NCBI RefSeq assembly: GCF_040538665.1 | Contig: NZ_JBEWXT010000001.1 | Location: 3,374,501 to 3,438,500, forward strand | DNA from: Aureibaculum sp. 2308TA14-22 | GTDB lineage: Bacteria; Bacteroidota; Bacteroidia; Flavobacteriales; Flavobacteriaceae | Length of the DNA: 64,000 bases | Reading direction: 5' to 3' | Shown here: piece after piece, positions 3,171 to 9,135 of the stretch | Numbering within the stretch: position 1 is the stretch's first letter | How the letters are laid out: every line of letters begins with the position of its first letter | Made by a program: the position numbers and the translations under genes | Notes under the pieces: generated by a model | What the model saw: the letters and a program-made list of their open reading frames with translations, nothing else | What the model was told of the DNA's origin: nothing | Databases searched by the model: none

Positions 3171-4769
3171 TCACTTTCTATTTTTATACAGATTGATATA
3201 ATGATTATCCAATGTTTCAGAATCTTTATACTTGGTTCTTGTGTCTTTCAATTTTTGTTTCATTTCTGCAATTTCATCAGCATACTCTTTATTATTGATA
3301 AGGTTATTCATTTCTTGTGGGTCTTTTTTACGGTCGTAAAATTCCCAAACATCTATATCGTGGTAAAAGTGAATGATTTTGTATTCCTTGGTCGCTATTC
3401 CGTAATGTCGTTTTACCGTATGCTCACCAGGATATTCGTAATAATGGTAGTACACAGCATCTCTATCCCATTTTTCTTTTTCTCCTGTCAACAATGGGAC
3501 AAGACTTTTACCCTGCATATCTTTGGGGGCATTTACACCAGCAATTTCAAGGAAAGTTTGAGCAAAATCTAAGTTTTGTACCATTTCCTCTTCGGTTGTG
3601 CCTGCAGTAATTTTGTTTGGCCACTTAATCAATAAAGGTGTTTTAAACGATTCGTTGTACATAAACCGCTTATCAAACCATCCGTGTTCACCTAAATAAA
3701 AACCTTGATCGGAAGTATAAACAACAATGGTGTTTTCAGCTAATTTTTCTTTATCTAAATAATCCAATACTCTCCCCACATTATCATCAACGGAGGCAAT
3801 GGTACCCAAATAATCTTGCAGGTAACGTTGGTATTTCCACTCCATTAATTGTTTATCATCCATAGTAGGATAACGTTTTTCAAACTCATCAATAATAGGG
3901 TTGTAAACACTATCCCAATTTTCCCTTTGTTCTGGTGTCATTCGTCTAGTTTCTGACCTTGCCAAGCCCTTGAAGATCCCCATTCTTTTTAAAACTTCCT
4001 TATCTACCTTATTGTCGTAAGATAAATGCATGTGCTTTAAAATGCTCATTTCTGCGGTGCTTGCAGCAACTCTGTCTGCATAATCATCAAAAAGTGTTTC
4101 TGGTAATGGAAAGGTTTTTTTGGTAAACTCTTTATAGTGTTTTTCATCAGGATACCATGCTCTGTGTGGTGCTTTATGCAAATACATTAAGAGAAAAGGT
4201 TTGTCTTTTACTCTCCTGTTTTGTAACCAATCTAAGGCTAAGTCAGTGGTAATATCAGTAACGTAGCCAGTTATTGTAGTATCACCTTGTTGAGTAATAA
4301 ACCTTGGGTTGTAATAACTACCCTGCCCAGGCAAGATTTTAAACTCATCAAAGCCCTTGGGATTGTTACCAAAATGCAATTTACCGAACATTACTGTCTG
4401 ATAGCCTGCATTTTGAAGCAGTTGCGGAAAAGTTACATTGGTAGTATCAAATTTGCTGATATTATCAATTTTACCGTTCAAATGACTGTGTTTTCCCGTA
4501 AGGATGACCGCTCGTGAAGGTGCACAGATGGAATTGGTAACGGTGGCATTGTTAAAAAGTATACCTTCATTGGCAATTCGATCTATATTCGGGGTCTGTA
4601 TCAATTTATCAGAATATGCACTTATGGCCTGATAAGCGTGATCATCAGACATGATAAAGACAATATTTGGCTTGGGCTGTTCATCTGTTTTTGGTTTATT
4701 GTTTTTCTGCTGTTTGCTACAGGAAGAAACAAAAAGAATTAAAATTAAAATGAATATTACTTTTCTCAT
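3171..4769 (-). CDS. Type I sulfatase lipoprotein, N-acetylglucosamine-6-sulfatase-like
   Basis: A 532-residue formylglycine-dependent sulfatase. The N-terminus is a lipoprotein signal with lipobox VSSC and lipidated Cys17. The sulfatase signature CAPSRAVILTG begins at Cys82, the residue converted to formylglycine, and SDDHAYQ (41-47) supplies metal-binding Asp residues. The stretch DDHAYQAIS, the NSICxPSR context and the GQGSYYNPRF segment resemble mucin-desulfating GlcNAc-6-sulfatases more than other subfamilies. It probably removes sulfate from host-type or marine glycans at the cell envelope, complementing the neighbouring sialidase. The CxPSR position usually held by Gly is Ala here, which the consensus allows. 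Class is secure; exact substrate is inferred. Confidence 0.88.
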   Translation of the reverse strand: MRKVIFILILILFVSSCSKQQKNNKPKTDEQPKPNIVFIMSDDHAYQAISAYSDKLIQTPNIDRIANEGILFNNATVTNSICAPSRAVILTGKHSHLNGKIDNISKFDTTNVTFPQLLQNAGYQTVMFGKLHFGNNPKGFDEFKILPGQGSYYNPRFITQQGDTTITGYVTDITTDLALDWLQNRRVKDKPFLLMYLHKAPHRAWYPDEKHYKEFTKKTFPLPETLFDDYADRVAASTAEMSILKHMHLSYDNKVDKEVLKRMGIFKGLARSETRRMTPEQRENWDSVYNPIIDEFEKRYPTMDDKQLMEWKYQRYLQDYLGTIASVDDNVGRVLDYLDKEKLAENTIVVYTSDQGFYLGEHGWFDKRFMYNESFKTPLLIKWPNKITAGTTEEEMVQNLDFAQTFLEIAGVNAPKDMQGKSLVPLLTGEKEKWDRDAVYYHYYEYPGEHTVKRHYGIATKEYKIIHFYHDIDVWEFYDRKKDPQEMNNLINNKEYADEIAEMKQKLKDTRTKYKDSETLDNHYINLYKNRK

Positions 4770-4863: not shown

Positions 4864-4894
4864 TTTGTTTTTTTAAATTTTAAGTATAGCTTTG
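4864..4894 (+). promoter_or_regulatory. Bacteroidota-type promoter of the Phe/Tyr operon leader
   Basis: A -33 element TTTG (4864-4867), a 19-base spacer and a perfect TAnnTTTG -7 element TAGCTTTG (4887-4894) match the primary-sigma promoter consensus of Bacteroidota. Transcription would start near 4899-4901, about 14 bases before the leader-peptide ATG. Confidence 0.7.
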
Positions 4895-4913
4895 TCTTTT
4901 CAATTTGTAAAAA

Positions 4914-5003
4914 ATGAAATTAAATAACACTTGGCAAGCTTATTTTTACTTCTTTTATTTTTATAAGATGAAGCGAGGCTTTGTAAGTGTTTTTAAACAA
5001 TAA
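4914..5003 (+). CDS. Phe/Tyr-rich leader peptide of the aromatic amino acid operon
   Basis: A 29-codon ORF, too short for routine gene calling, runs from ATG 4914 to TAA 5001-5003. Residues 10-17 read YFYFFYFY: four Phe and four Tyr codons in a row (4941-4964), followed by two more Phe. It sits directly downstream of a consensus promoter and upstream of a terminator-like hairpin that precedes pheA. The design is analogous to enterobacterial pheL: low charged tRNA-Phe or tRNA-Tyr would stall the ribosome on this run. The mixed Tyr/Phe composition matches the operon, which makes both amino acids. Codons 21-23 (Arg-Gly-Phe) also form the antiterminator arm. No homologue is recalled; the call rests on composition and position. 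Confidence 0.82.
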   Translation: MKLNNTWQAYFYFFYFYKMKRGFVSVFKQ

Positions 5004-5034
5004 TATGTAAACACAATCATATAGAAGCCTCGTT
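4972..5034 (+). promoter_or_regulatory. Antiterminator pairing of the Phe/Tyr attenuator
   Basis: The octamer CGAGGCTT at 4974-4981, inside the leader ORF, is identical to the 3' arm of the terminator (5039-5046). Both are complementary to AAGCCTCG at 5025-5032. With flanking A-T and G-T pairs the antiterminator helix can span 11 pairs (4972-4982 with 5024-5034). A ribosome held early in the aromatic codon run would leave 4974-4981 free to capture the shared arm and block the terminator. Confidence 0.75.
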
Positions 5035-5051
5035 AATTCGAGGCTTTTTTT
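5024..5051 (+). terminator. Attenuator terminator before pheA
   Basis: A perfect 8-bp stem, AAGCCTCG (5025-5032) with CGAGGCTT (5039-5046), encloses a 6-base TTAATT loop. It runs into seven T residues at 5045-5051, a classical intrinsic terminator. It lies after the leader-peptide stop and 16 bases before the pheA start, so it would abort transcription when the antiterminator does not form. Confidence 0.82.
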
Positions 5052-5067
5052 ATGAACTGATTTAAAA

Positions 5068-5904
5068 ATGAATATAGCAATTCAAGGTATAATGGGTTCG
5101 TTCCACCATATTGTGGCACATCAGTATTTTGGTGAGAACATTACTTTAAAGGAATGTCTGTCTTTTGATGAAATGCCACAAATGCTCAATGACAACAGGG
5201 TAGATGGTGCAGTAATGGCGATTGAAAATACCTTAGCAGGGTCAATTTTATCTAATTATGCATTGATTAACGAATTCGATTTAAAAATTCAAGGCGAGGT
5301 TCATTTGCCTATTCATCATAATTTAATGGGGTTGAAAGGTCAGTCTTTACAGGATATAAAAGAAGTTTGGTCGCATCCAATGGCAATATTGCAGTGTAGA
5401 AAATTCTTTAGAGCTTACCCGCACATAAAATTAGTAGAAGAAACAGATACTGCAGAAGTTGCCAAACAAATTAATGATAAAAAACTGAAAGGAATTGCTG
5501 CCATTGCTAGCAAAAAGGCAGCAGAAATTTATAATTTAAATATTATAGAAAGCGAAATACAAACCAGAAAGCAGAACTATACCCGATTTTTTATTTTGAA
5601 GAAAAGTAACGGAAATATTACAAGACCGAGTAAAGTGAACAAAGCCTCATTGCGTTTTATAACACACCATGAAACAGGAAGTTTATCAGACGTTTTACGT
5701 ATTTTTGCGGACTTCAATATGAATTTATCCAAAATACAGTCACTACCTATTATTGATAACCCTTGGAATTATGCCTTTTTTGCAGATGTGGTATTTGATG
5801 ATTATGATCAGTTTCAAAAAGCAATTGAAACGGTAAATGGAAAAGTAAGTGAGTTAAAAATTTTAGGAGAATACGAACAAAGTAAACGTAAACATGCCAA
5901 CTAA
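5068..5904 (+). CDS. pheA: Prephenate dehydratase
   Basis: Converts prephenate to phenylpyruvate in phenylalanine synthesis. The 278-residue protein has the normal layout: catalytic domain (1-180) with the diagnostic Thr-Arg-Phe motif at 172-174, and a C-terminal ACT domain (about 193-270) for allosteric control. The ACT segment reads GSLSDVL and SKIQSLP, variants of the classical GALAxVL and ESRP phenylalanine-binding motifs. It lacks the chorismate mutase domain found in the enterobacterial PheA P-protein; that activity is fused to DAHP synthase at the end of this operon. It is the first gene after the attenuator and overlaps the aminotransferase gene by 11 bases. Confidence 0.95.
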   Translation: MNIAIQGIMGSFHHIVAHQYFGENITLKECLSFDEMPQMLNDNRVDGAVMAIENTLAGSILSNYALINEFDLKIQGEVHLPIHHNLMGLKGQSLQDIKEVWSHPMAILQCRKFFRAYPHIKLVEETDTAEVAKQINDKKLKGIAAIASKKAAEIYNLNIIESEIQTRKQNYTRFFILKKSNGNITRPSKVNKASLRFITHHETGSLSDVLRIFADFNMNLSKIQSLPIIDNPWNYAFFADVVFDDYDQFQKAIETVNGKVSELKILGEYEQSKRKHAN

Positions 5905-7051
5905 AGCTAATAGATTAAATAGCGTTCAAGAGTATTACTTCTCTAAAAAATTAAGAGAGGTTCGTCAGCTAAAAGCAGAAGGAAAGCCTATAATCAATAT
6001 TGGTATTGGCAGTCCGGATTTAGATCCGCCAATTACGGTGAGCAGGGCTATGCAAAATGCTTTGGAGCAAAATAATATACATGGTTACCAGAGTTACCAA
6101 GGTTTACCTGAATTTAGGACTTCAATTGCTGATTTTTATAATAAATATTACGGTGTTGAAATAAATCCTGAAAATGAAATTTTGCCTTTAATGGGTTCAA
6201 AAGAAGGAATAATGCATATTTCAATGGCTTTTTTAAATGCTGGGGATCAAGTTTTGATTCCCAATCCTGGTTATCCTACTTACACCTCCGTAACTAATTT
6301 GTTGGAGGCTGAACCTGTTTATTATGATTTGAATGATGATACCAATTGGTATCCAGATACAGCGGAATTAGAAAAACACGACTTGTCAAAAGTAAAATTA
6401 ATGTGGGTTAATTATCCACATATGCCAACGGGTAAAAATCCAACTAAAAAGTTATATGAAGATTTAGTAGCTTTTGCTGAGAAACATGGTATTTTATTAA
6501 TTAATGATAATCCATATAGTTTTGTTTTAAATGATAATCCGCTAAGTATTTTAAGCGTAAAAGGGGCTAAAAAAGTTGCCTTAGAACTAAATTCATTGAG
6601 CAAAACCTTTAATATGGCAGGGTGGCGAGTGGGAATGTTATTAGGATCTGCTGAAAATATTACTACAGTTTTGCAAGTAAAAAGCAATATGGATTCTGGC
6701 ATGTTTTACGGAATTCAGCAAGGAGCTATTGCAGCCTTGCAATCTGATCAAAGTTGGTTTGCTAACTTAAATTTGATTTATGAAAAACGTCGAAACGTAG
6801 CTTGGCAGATTGCAGATGCTCTAGGTTGTACTTATGATAAAAATGCTTCCGGGTTATTTGTTTGGGCTAAATTACCTATTGGATTAACAGCAGAGCAAAC
6901 GGCAGATGATTTATTATATACATATGACGTGTTTTTAGCACCGGGAACAATTTTTGGCTCTAATGGTGAAGGTTATATTAGATTGTCACTTTGTGTATCG
7001 GAAGAAATACTAACTCAAGTTTTACAACGAATTTTAACTAAAAGCGTATAA
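5894..7051 (+). CDS. Class I/II PLP-dependent aminotransferase, probably aromatic
   Basis: A 385-residue fold-type I aminotransferase. Substrate and cofactor elements are clear: NPGYPTY (124-130), the Asn-containing NYPHMPTG (173-180), and the PLP lysine in SLSKTFNMAGWR (Lys237). Sequence alone would allow aspartate, LL-diaminopimelate or aromatic specificity. Its place between prephenate dehydratase and prephenate dehydrogenase, with an 11-base overlap upstream and a 1-base stop-start overlap downstream, makes transamination of phenylpyruvate and 4-hydroxyphenylpyruvate the best inference. It would finish both branches of the pathway encoded here. Confidence 0.88.
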   Translation: MPTKANRLNSVQEYYFSKKLREVRQLKAEGKPIINIGIGSPDLDPPITVSRAMQNALEQNNIHGYQSYQGLPEFRTSIADFYNKYYGVEINPENEILPLMGSKEGIMHISMAFLNAGDQVLIPNPGYPTYTSVTNLLEAEPVYYDLNDDTNWYPDTAELEKHDLSKVKLMWVNYPHMPTGKNPTKKLYEDLVAFAEKHGILLINDNPYSFVLNDNPLSILSVKGAKKVALELNSLSKTFNMAGWRVGMLLGSAENITTVLQVKSNMDSGMFYGIQQGAIAALQSDQSWFANLNLIYEKRRNVAWQIADALGCTYDKNASGLFVWAKLPIGLTAEQTADDLLYTYDVFLAPGTIFGSNGEGYIRLSLCVSEEILTQVLQRILTKSV

Positions 7052-7902
7052 TGGAAAAAATAGTTGTAATCGGTTTAGGGTTAATTGGAGGTTCAATGGC
7101 AATTGACTTAAAGAAAAAAGGCAATCGACATATTATTGGCATAGATAAGAATGAGAATCACACCCAAAAAGCATTAGAATTGGGTATTATTGATGTTATT
7201 GGAACTGAAAATGATATTGCTACAGCCGATATTGTTATTGTTGCCGTTCCTGCGGATGCTATTCCAACAGTAACCAAATCAGTTTTGGACGGAATTAATG
7301 AAAATACATTGGTTTTTGATGTTGGCTCGGTAAAGGAACAAGTTTGTAATCAGACAAAAAACCATCCTAATCGAAAAAATTATGTAGCCGTTCATCCTAT
7401 AGCAGGTACGGAATTTTCAGGACCTGAAGCTGCTTTTAGCGGTTTGTTTACCAAAAAAATCAATATTATTTGTGATAAAGAAGCCTCCGACAAGAAAACA
7501 TTAGATAAAGCATTACAAATCTTTGATGAATTACAAATGCGAATTACTTTTATGAATGCCGATGAACACGACAAACATATTGCTTATGTTTCGCATTTAT
7601 CACATATCAGTGCTTTTATGCTTGGGAAAACGGTCTTAGAAATTGAGCCTAACGAAAAAAATATTTTTAATATGGCAGGTAGTGGATTTAGATCTACTGT
7701 ACGTTTGGCAAAAAGTTCTCCAGCAATGTGGACACCTATTTTTCTGCAGAACAAAGAAAACGTACTAAAATCTCTAAATGAGTATATAAAGAACCTAGAA
7801 ACCTTTAAAAATAAGATTGAAAAAGGCTCAAATGAAGAAGTTTATACTATTATGGAGAATACCAACAGGATAAAAAACATACTAGATGGTATTGTTAAGT
7901 AG
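7051..7902 (+). CDS. tyrA: Prephenate dehydrogenase
   Basis: Oxidatively decarboxylates prephenate to 4-hydroxyphenylpyruvate for tyrosine synthesis. The 283-residue protein starts with the dinucleotide-binding motif GLGLIGGS (8-15) and carries the family's HPIAGTEFSGP motif, whose His115 corresponds to the catalytic His. No ACT or chorismate mutase domain is attached, so it is the short monofunctional form. The start overlaps the aminotransferase stop (TAATG), indicating translational coupling. An AT-rich 83-base gap with two AGTATTTAATA copies separates it from the next gene. Confidence 0.94.
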   Translation: MEKIVVIGLGLIGGSMAIDLKKKGNRHIIGIDKNENHTQKALELGIIDVIGTENDIATADIVIVAVPADAIPTVTKSVLDGINENTLVFDVGSVKEQVCNQTKNHPNRKNYVAVHPIAGTEFSGPEAAFSGLFTKKINIICDKEASDKKTLDKALQIFDELQMRITFMNADEHDKHIAYVSHLSHISAFMLGKTVLEIEPNEKNIFNMAGSGFRSTVRLAKSSPAMWTPIFLQNKENVLKSLNEYIKNLETFKNKIEKGSNEEVYTIMENTNRIKNILDGIVK

Positions 7903-7985: not shown

Positions 7986-9065
7986 ATGGAAACAACAGAC
8001 TTTTCAACATGGTTAAAAAAGATGGAATTGAGCCATCCTTTAGTAATTGCCGGTCCATGTAGTGCAGAAACTGAAGAACAAGTGCTAAAAATAGCACATC
8101 AATTAAAAGAAACAGATGCCACAGTTTTTAGAGCAGGTATCTGGAAACCCAGAACAAGGCCTGGAAATTTTGAAGGTAATGGTGTAAAAGCATTACCTTG
8201 GATATCCAAGGTTAAAGAGGAAACAGGAATGTTAACTACTGTTGAGGTTGCCAATGCTGAACATGCCAAATTAGCATTAGAATTTGATATTGATATTATT
8301 TGGATTGGAGCCAGAACTACTGTTAACCCATTTGCGGTTCAAGAGATTGCTGATGCTTTACAGGGTACTGACAAAATTGTGTTGGTAAAAAACCCAATTA
8401 ACCCTGATTTGGCCTTATGGATTGGTGCTATTGAGCGTTTACATGCTATGGGCATTAAAAATTTAGGAGCCATCCATCGTGGTTTCTCATCTTTTAAAAA
8501 GACTAAGTATAGAAACATTCCACAATGGCAAATTCCAATTGATTTAAAAAATAGATTCCCAACATTACCTATTATTTGTGATCCTTCACATATTTGTGGT
8601 GAACGTGACGGTATTTTTGATGTATGCCAGAAGGCTTTAGATTTAAAATTTGAAGGATTAATGATTGAAACGCATTACGATCCTGACAATGCTTGGAGCG
8701 ATGCGAAACAACAAATTACGCCAAACAGATTAAAGCAGATTACTGAAGATCTTAAGGTGCGAAAAGATAGAGTTGTAGAAAAGGACTCGCTAAAAAAATT
8801 AACTGGACTGCGTGAAGAGATTACCTCATTAGACAAACAACTAATTACTTTATTATCAGAAAGAATGGACGTTGTAGAGAATATTGGGAAAGTAAAAAAA
8901 GAGAGTAATGTTGCTATTTTGCAAAGAACCAGATGGCAAGAAGTTATTCAAGGGATGCTAAAAGAAGGAGAACAACACGGATTAAGTGAAGGTTTTGTAG
9001 AAAAAATATTCAAATCTATTCATCAGGAATCAATAGCTCATCAAGAAAAAATTGTGAATAGCTAG
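7986..9065 (+). CDS. Bifunctional DAHP synthase/chorismate mutase
   Basis: A 359-residue fusion. Residues about 1-255 form a type I-beta (KDO8P-synthase-like) DAHP synthase with IAGPCSAE (21-28), KPRTRPGNFEG, GAIHRGFSS and the metal-binding CDPSHICG. It condenses phosphoenolpyruvate with erythrose 4-phosphate at the start of the shikimate pathway. Residues about 264-355 form an AroQ-type chorismate mutase helix bundle (LREEITSLDKQLITLLSERM), converting chorismate to prephenate for the pheA and tyrA products. Such fusions are standard in Bacteroidota and let one polypeptide couple pathway entry to the Phe/Tyr branch point. Last gene of the operon, followed by a strong terminator. Confidence 0.95.
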   Translation: METTDFSTWLKKMELSHPLVIAGPCSAETEEQVLKIAHQLKETDATVFRAGIWKPRTRPGNFEGNGVKALPWISKVKEETGMLTTVEVANAEHAKLALEFDIDIIWIGARTTVNPFAVQEIADALQGTDKIVLVKNPINPDLALWIGAIERLHAMGIKNLGAIHRGFSSFKKTKYRNIPQWQIPIDLKNRFPTLPIICDPSHICGERDGIFDVCQKALDLKFEGLMIETHYDPDNAWSDAKQQITPNRLKQITEDLKVRKDRVVEKDSLKKLTGLREEITSLDKQLITLLSERMDVVENIGKVKKESNVAILQRTRWQEVIQGMLKEGEQHGLSEGFVEKIFKSIHQESIAHQEKIVNS

Positions 9066-9096: not shown

Positions 9097-9135
9097 AAGT
9101 CCTATTTTGTTTTCAAAACAAAGTAGGACTTTTTT
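9097..9135 (+). terminator. Intrinsic terminator of the Phe/Tyr operon
   Basis: A long hairpin pairs AAGTCCTATTTTG (9097-9109) with CAAAGTAGGACTT (9119-9131), one G-T wobble, and ends in a run of T to 9135. It lies 31 bases after the DAHP synthase stop. Confidence 0.88.

Follow-up and report, generated by a model that had tools for sequence, protein, structure and literature searches.

A probable ribosome-mediated attenuator with a phenylalanine–tyrosine leader upstream of the pheA operon in Aureibaculum and its relatives

In the enterobacterial pheL leader, which stands before pheA, the control codons are for phenylalanine alone, and trpL-type attenuators stand before trp operons. In a comparative study, Vitreschak and colleagues (2004) reportedly touched on the Bacteroidetes. 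According to passages of a 2010 paper, the Proteobacteria and Actinobacteria were the only groups with leader-peptide systems known to its authors until the Firmicutes case that it described (PMC2965389), and passages of another describe short ORFs in Bacteroides thetaiotaomicron that resemble attenuation leader peptides (PMC7366714). For Flavobacterium psychrophilum, passages of a 2021 study report 64 structured 5′ regions, a conserved structured element before pheA that occurs in other Flavobacteriaceae genera and gave no Rfam hits, the absence of Shine–Dalgarno sequences in the family and, separately, strong hints that leader peptides attenuate amino-acid operons (PMC9723704). That pheA element shares its gene and its bacterial family with the locus described here; the amino acids read and covariation are not given in those passages. 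The initial annotation of the locus knew of no described flavobacterial case, which needs correcting for the pheA element and the hints of attenuation already in that study. In the available parts of the open-access literature no description of mixed Phe/Tyr sensing, or of a codon switch, was found.

The window analyzed here is a stretch of 64,000 nucleotides whose nearest named relatives are Aureibaculum species. On the evidence of its sequence and of comparison with related genomes, the region 4864-5051 of the window is very probably a ribosome-mediated transcription attenuator of the pheA operon, and a predicted switch of the same kind is widespread in the family.

The leader and its alternative pairings

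The features of the locus are collected in Table 1. They include those by which attenuators are recognized, namely a short ORF rich in codons for the amino acids of its operon, an intrinsic terminator (5023-5051) and an antiterminator that excludes it. The promoter, whose −7 box ends 19 nt upstream of the leader ATG, the 29-codon ORF with its eight successive Tyr and Phe codons (four of each), and the octamer CGAGGCTT at 4974-4981, with its second copy at 5039-5046, its complement AAGCCTCG at 5025-5032 and the T-run, had all been reported in the initial annotation, and each was found again exactly where it had been placed. Absent from that annotation were the Trp codon directly upstream of the aromatic run and the 1:2 helix formed by segments 1 and 2b.

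Table 1. Features assigned to the leader region and to the operon that follows it in the window.
Feature	Position	Strand	Basis
Promoter, Bacteroidota sigma-A type: TTTG (4864-4867), 19 nt, TAGCTTTG (4887-4894)	4864-4894	+	0 mismatches to TTTG-N-TANNTTTG
Leader peptide ORF MKLNNTWQAYFYFFYFYKMKRGFVSVFKQ, 29 codons and stop	4914-5003	+	Sequence; conservation before pheA
Segment 1, 5′ arm of 1:2 helix (partner 4984-4991)	4926-4933	+	Folds of full leader and of RNA to 4995
Trp codon directly upstream of aromatic run	4932-4934	+	Sequence
Eight control codons in a row, Tyr Phe Tyr Phe Phe Tyr Phe Tyr (codons 10-17)	4941-4964	+	Sequence
Segment 2, 5′ arm of antiterminator 2:3	4972-4982	+	11 pairs with 5023-5034
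Segment 2b, 3′ arm of 1:2 helix	4984-4991	+	Folds
Segment 3, common to antiterminator 2:3 and terminator 3:4	5023-5034	+	Conservation, folds
Segment 4 (5039-5048) and T-run (5045-5051), 3′ side of intrinsic terminator	5039-5051	+	3:4 helix
pheA, prephenate dehydratase (PDT), with ACT domain	5068-5904	+	Pfam PF00800, PF01842
Aminotransferase class I/II	5894-7051	+	Pfam PF00155
tyrA, prephenate dehydrogenase	7051-7902	+	Pfam PF02153, PF20463
DAHP synthase fused to chorismate mutase	7986-9065	+	Pfam PF00793, PF01817
Terminator-like hairpin 3′ of operon	9097-9131	+	Consensus scan

A run of eight Phe or Tyr codons is little proof alone, since a scan of the whole genome for eight-codon TWY runs found two sites on the forward strand and none on the reverse, against one and none in the backwards control. 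A five-codon TWY pattern was dropped as a search tool, being too common (208 forward and 230 reverse matches). Four terminator-like hairpins were counted in 4.5 kb, against 2.0 in shuffles.

The terminator helix 3:4 joins 5023-5032 to 5039-5048 in 10 pairs, and for the competing antiterminator 2:3 none of 200 dinucleotide shuffles of the window's leader was as good. RNA from 4914 to 5055 was calculated to fold at −37.4 kcal/mol, against −20.5 (SD 3.5) in dinucleotide shuffles (z −4.85; 0 of 200 as good). Each helix taken alone, the energies are near equal, with E(2:3) at −14.4 and E(3:4) at −14.7 kcal/mol. RNA that begins at 4956, as it would if a ribosome sat on the first aromatic codon, and ends with segment 3 (5035) folds as 2:3; when segment 2 is hidden the RNA folds as 3:4, and the full leader without a ribosome forms 1:2 together with 3:4. 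Note, however, that two folds are at odds with a simple equilibrium: without a ribosome, RNA ending at segment 3 has 2:3 and not 1:2 as its best fold, and the full RNA from 4956 prefers 3:4 over 2:3. Given the latter, the antiterminator must win by earlier synthesis, and the switch must therefore be kinetic, as it is in classical attenuators.

Conservation in the family and beyond

Regions upstream of pheA were taken from 100 related genomes (a match was found in 74, and regions were fetched for some of these) and from 80 named or MAG loci, two sets that overlap in part. Removal of three short regions (L019, L043, L061) and 11 duplicates from the 158 obtained left 144 distinct regions. The initial annotation had made its reading depend on conservation of the leader ORF and of the alternative pairing in relatives. 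An ORF with at least seven aromatic codons in 10 was found before pheA in 129 of the 144, a count that includes L143, whose ORF reaches into the start of pheA and is probably not genuine. The remaining 15 comprise six regions before tandem pheA paralogs, two with five in 10 (L016 and L017) and seven with none. The alternative pairing was recovered as well, with covariation in both stems, as described below. Counts over single leaders refer to a set of 127 rows, for which both the ORF (at least five aromatic codons in 10) and a terminator were required. The gene order pheA–aminotransferase–tyrA–DAHP synthase was kept in 58 of the 60 loci where 3500 nt or more followed pheA.

In 105 of the 127 leaders, 10-15 nt separate the last aromatic codon from the start of segment 2, a spacing close to that between the A site of a ribosome and its leading edge. 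The leader ORF of the window covers segment 2 and stops 21 nt past its end, so that a ribosome at the stop codon would barely cover the segment; the ORF ends nearer to segment 2 in 122 of the 127 leaders and as far or farther in five, the window included, while in L020, L041, L044, L048 and L056 (two of them named Lutimonas) it ends before segment 2 starts. A promoter with no more than one mismatch was present in 78% of the 122 rows with enough upstream DNA, compared with 4.5% of mononucleotide shuffles.

Tested region by region against dinucleotide shuffles, the 2:3 duplex reached p 0.05 in 87 of the 127 regions, 44 of which also reached p 0.005, and the other 40 fell short of p 0.05 singly. 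The terminator stems of the relatives form several sequence classes, and the segment 3 of the same region is a closer fit to segment 2 than are the segments 3 of the other classes (AUC 0.901), the fit to its own lying above the other-class mean in 124 of 127 cases. The helices were further studied in an unfitted MAFFT alignment of 76 leaders, drawn from the 102 that clustering had left. Here, 2:3 was paired in 79.4% of cells, against at most 53.3% for slid versions, and its covariation score was 0.264, against 0.198 (SD 0.010) in shuffles, none of 500 being as high. Two of the five measures applied to 2:3 did not rise above shuffles, these being pairs changed on both sides (191 of 500 as high) and further pair types (240 of 500 as high). 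By eye, the alignment seems to place segment 2 one column off in rows of the GTCCCG type, which would lower the paired count for 2:3. Across the same 76 leaders, 3:4 was paired in 96.2% of cells, with change on both sides in nine of its 10 pairs, and both its paired cells and its covariation score were higher than those of shuffles or slid versions. The 1:2 helix alone was not significant in the window (p 0.26); with p ≤0.05 against shuffles in 23 of 127 regions, it is weakly supported singly.

The 76 leaders, that of the window among them, also served to build a covariance model of the complete element. This model matched the window site with an E value of 2.5e-11, and the two other matches listed in the same genome were partial (model positions 72-138 and 52-138, E 0.0015 and 0.005). 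At E ≤1e-4, 66 of the 80 family genomes had a match, one of which (G049) stands before DAHP synthase; the figure is partly circular because the model was built from the same leaders. In a class-wide draw, with the window's own locus (L165) excluded and three of 33 PDT genomes yielding no locus, an ORF with at least five aromatic codons in 10 was present at 20 of 29 PDT loci, two of which lie in the window's family, and a terminator (stem of at least five) was present in 14 of those 20. By our criteria, an aromatic ORF without a terminator occurs in six of the 20 class-level regions and in four of the 144.

Some further arrangements were met in these searches. In G002, G004 and G005 (L011-L013), three prephenate dehydratase copies stand in tandem, with the aromatic leader before the last and most window-like copy and none, at seven in 10, before the middle one. 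A second prephenate dehydratase match in another genome (G010:C1:2208335-2209051) lies within a 599-residue open frame, perhaps a fusion. The leader-model search yielded 20 regions for inspection, 19 of them model hits and one a TWY-run site. Three of these (L243, L248, L253) stand before aromatic-pathway genes, and two (L252 and L256, from G037 and G042) carry short ORFs with Cys-containing ends (WICRC, RCFCI) and a hairpin before a transporter-like gene, which Pfam, run on L252 only, assigned to MFS_1; these ORFs possibly belong to another leader-peptide attenuator. No aromatic leader was seen in the other 15 of the 20 regions. A strongly alike stretch is found in L245, L246 and L250 (G045, G025, G217), consisting of TTTGTTCATCATTGC, a T-run, GAGTTTGTTT and, farther on, GGTCAAA.CCTAAAACCACA, with a terminator-like hairpin at its end and two minus-strand genes beside it. 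It could be that this stretch is a small RNA.

Leaders of genomes without PDT and TyrA

By Pfam, 10 of 100 family genomes lack PDT. Two were added on the strength of a protein comparison that gave no pheA match, G038 (88% complete) and G057 (93% complete). A TyrA match was found in none of these 12 genomes, and TrpA was over the cut-off in eight, lying below it in G038, G057, G223 and G258. A Trp-Trp leader with a terminator was first seen before the DAHP synthase/chorismate mutase gene in G043, G049, G239, G240 and G244. Of four further genomes looked at afterwards, G224, which has TrpA, carries MYNTSLYWWHPYKL and a terminator, and G260, also with TrpA, has a terminator and a single Trp codon. 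Neither a Trp-Trp leader nor a terminator was present upstream of DAHP synthase/chorismate mutase in the other two, G223 and G258, which fall below the TrpA cut-off. Before DAHP synthase, a Trp-Trp leader with a terminator thus occurs in six of eight genomes with TrpA and in none of four below the cut-off, and a terminator in seven of eight and none of four (one-sided Fisher tests by hand, with kinship ignored, p 0.030 and 0.010), the sample being small and partly kin. When the two less complete genomes are left out, the Trp-Trp comparison becomes six of eight against none of two and loses significance (p 0.13).

The exception among the genomes with TrpA is G058, which has a second DAHP synthase match near trpA. 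In this genome a leader, MKNLNNTYYYYPILTRRIGQ (YYYY), and a terminator stand directly before a phenylalanine hydroxylase gene (Biopterin_H; L248:196-327), an arrangement that is likely a Tyr-only attenuator.

On a DAHP synthase tree, set against the six other PDT-less rows, the Trp-Trp leaders required three changes, at least two of them forced by supported branches; 94 of 500 shuffles of the label were as low, and gain and loss were indistinguishable. In the six Trp-Trp leaders, 22-32 nt lie between the end of the last Trp codon and segment 2, which places that codon where a Phe/Tyr run would have its upstream portion; four of the six miss p 0.05 singly for 2:3 (0.09-0.47). These sequences are most simply read as recoded aromatic leaders. 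One interpretation is that the aromatic attenuator of the Bacteroidota is a single old and recodable device, which in much of the Bacteroidia would act through Phe and Tyr codons, often with Trp, on a joint Phe–Tyr–DAHP operon, would be kept on DAHP synthase with Trp-Trp codons where the Phe/Tyr branch is missing, and may occur in a Tyr-only form before phenylalanine hydroxylase. We consider the chances of this interpretation evenly balanced; they would stand slightly higher if the Trp-Trp comparison had kept its significance when the two less complete genomes were left out. Were it true, the codons of the attenuator would be a record of the amino acids that a genome still makes, and the switch of codons in genomes without the Phe/Tyr branch is a computational check of what the attenuator senses.

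Proposed mechanism, alternatives and known systems

The pheL/pheA type of attenuation proposed in the initial annotation draws support from the conserved ORF, from the mutually exclusive 2:3 and 3:4 pairings with their conservation, and from covariation in both stems; to these is added the change of codons with pathway content. In such a scheme, RNA polymerase would start shortly before 4914 and a ribosome would translate the leader. With charged Phe-tRNA and Tyr-tRNA plentiful, the ribosome would clear the aromatic run and unwind segment 2, whereupon segments 3 and 4 would pair and transcription would end at 5045-5051. If Phe or Tyr were short, the ribosome would stall at 4941-4964 and leave segment 2 free to take segment 3 before segment 4 exists, with read-through into pheA, the aminotransferase gene, tyrA and the DAHP synthase/chorismate mutase gene. 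Shortage of either amino acid should suffice, as in an OR gate, because both codons alternate in one run. In a leader that is not translated, the 1:2 helix may hold segment 2. Translation of the leader, stalling of the ribosome, a sufficiently tight coupling of transcription and translation, and the direction of the response are what the scheme would predict.

A different possibility is that the peptide itself, together with a free amino acid, stalls the ribosome, TnaC being an example of such nascent-peptide arrest. Parts of the peptide are indeed near identical by letter within the genus of the window, but Phe and Tyr swap positions in the run, the C-terminal part varies by terminator class (RGF, ETL, SGL, GPL) and tracks the RNA pairing, and a Trp-Trp pair replaces the run in PDT-less genomes in varied peptide contexts; we regard arrest of this kind as very improbable. 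It is scarcely credible that an ordinary terminator is all that the hairpin represents and that the short ORF is there by accident. Such hairpins, and runs of Phe and Tyr codons, are not rare in this AT-rich genome; however, the leader hairpin sits between a promoter and pheA, where the upstream gene (3171-4769, minus strand) needs no terminator because it is divergent from the operon, and the ORF, its spacing and the antiterminator are conserved jointly.

A question of another sort is which amino acids are read. The initial annotation had described a leader of Tyr and Phe codons, and this holds for the runs, 125 of 127 of which have at least two Phe and at least two Tyr codons (591 Phe and 352 Tyr in total), and falls short for the leaders, since 66 of 127 also contain a Trp codon, as do all 16 rows of the clade with the window's genus on the pheA tree. 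It could be that the leader is a general aromatic sensor that reads Phe, Tyr and Trp alike on behalf of the DAHP synthase encoded last in the operon, and the Trp-Trp versions, found where PDT and TyrA are missing and TrpA is retained, also speak for this. On the other hand, Trp is missing from about half of the leaders; the frame by which the runs were picked counted W as aromatic, which favours it somewhat; and the Trp codon underwent 18 changes on the 96-row pheA tree, at least eight of them forced by supported branches, which makes a role for Trp optional; in the window, one Trp codon stands against eight for Phe and Tyr. Among pheA-containing genomes a comparison of the Trp codon with TrpA content had no power, TrpA being present in 63 of 64. 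Equal sensing of all three amino acids is, in our judgment, rather unlikely, and the Trp codon may act as a weak third input to an attenuator that reads Phe and Tyr.

Attenuation through Phe and Tyr codons, as preferred here, points to classical ribosome-mediated control of a central aromatic operon across the family. If the attenuator works, coupling in these bacteria would be tight enough for a ribosome to steer the polymerase.

The locus resembles enterobacterial pheL/pheA (RF01859, Phe_leader) in its aromatic leader ORF, its alternative pairings and its intrinsic terminator before pheA. RF01859 was the best of nine Rfam matches listed in a search of 301 bases (33.6 bits, E 4.5e-4), a score below the gathering score of 55 bits for that family, and the window gave no Rfam match at the gathering threshold. 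In contrast to pheL, the leader of the window mixes Phe and Tyr codons; in contrast to the pheL/pheA system as a whole, its operon holds both branches and DAHP synthase, its promoter is of the Bacteroidota type and its ORF runs through segment 2. With trpL-type attenuators, the DAHP synthase leaders of PDT-less genomes share tandem Trp codons and a terminator, but these leaders precede DAHP synthase/chorismate mutase rather than a trp operon.
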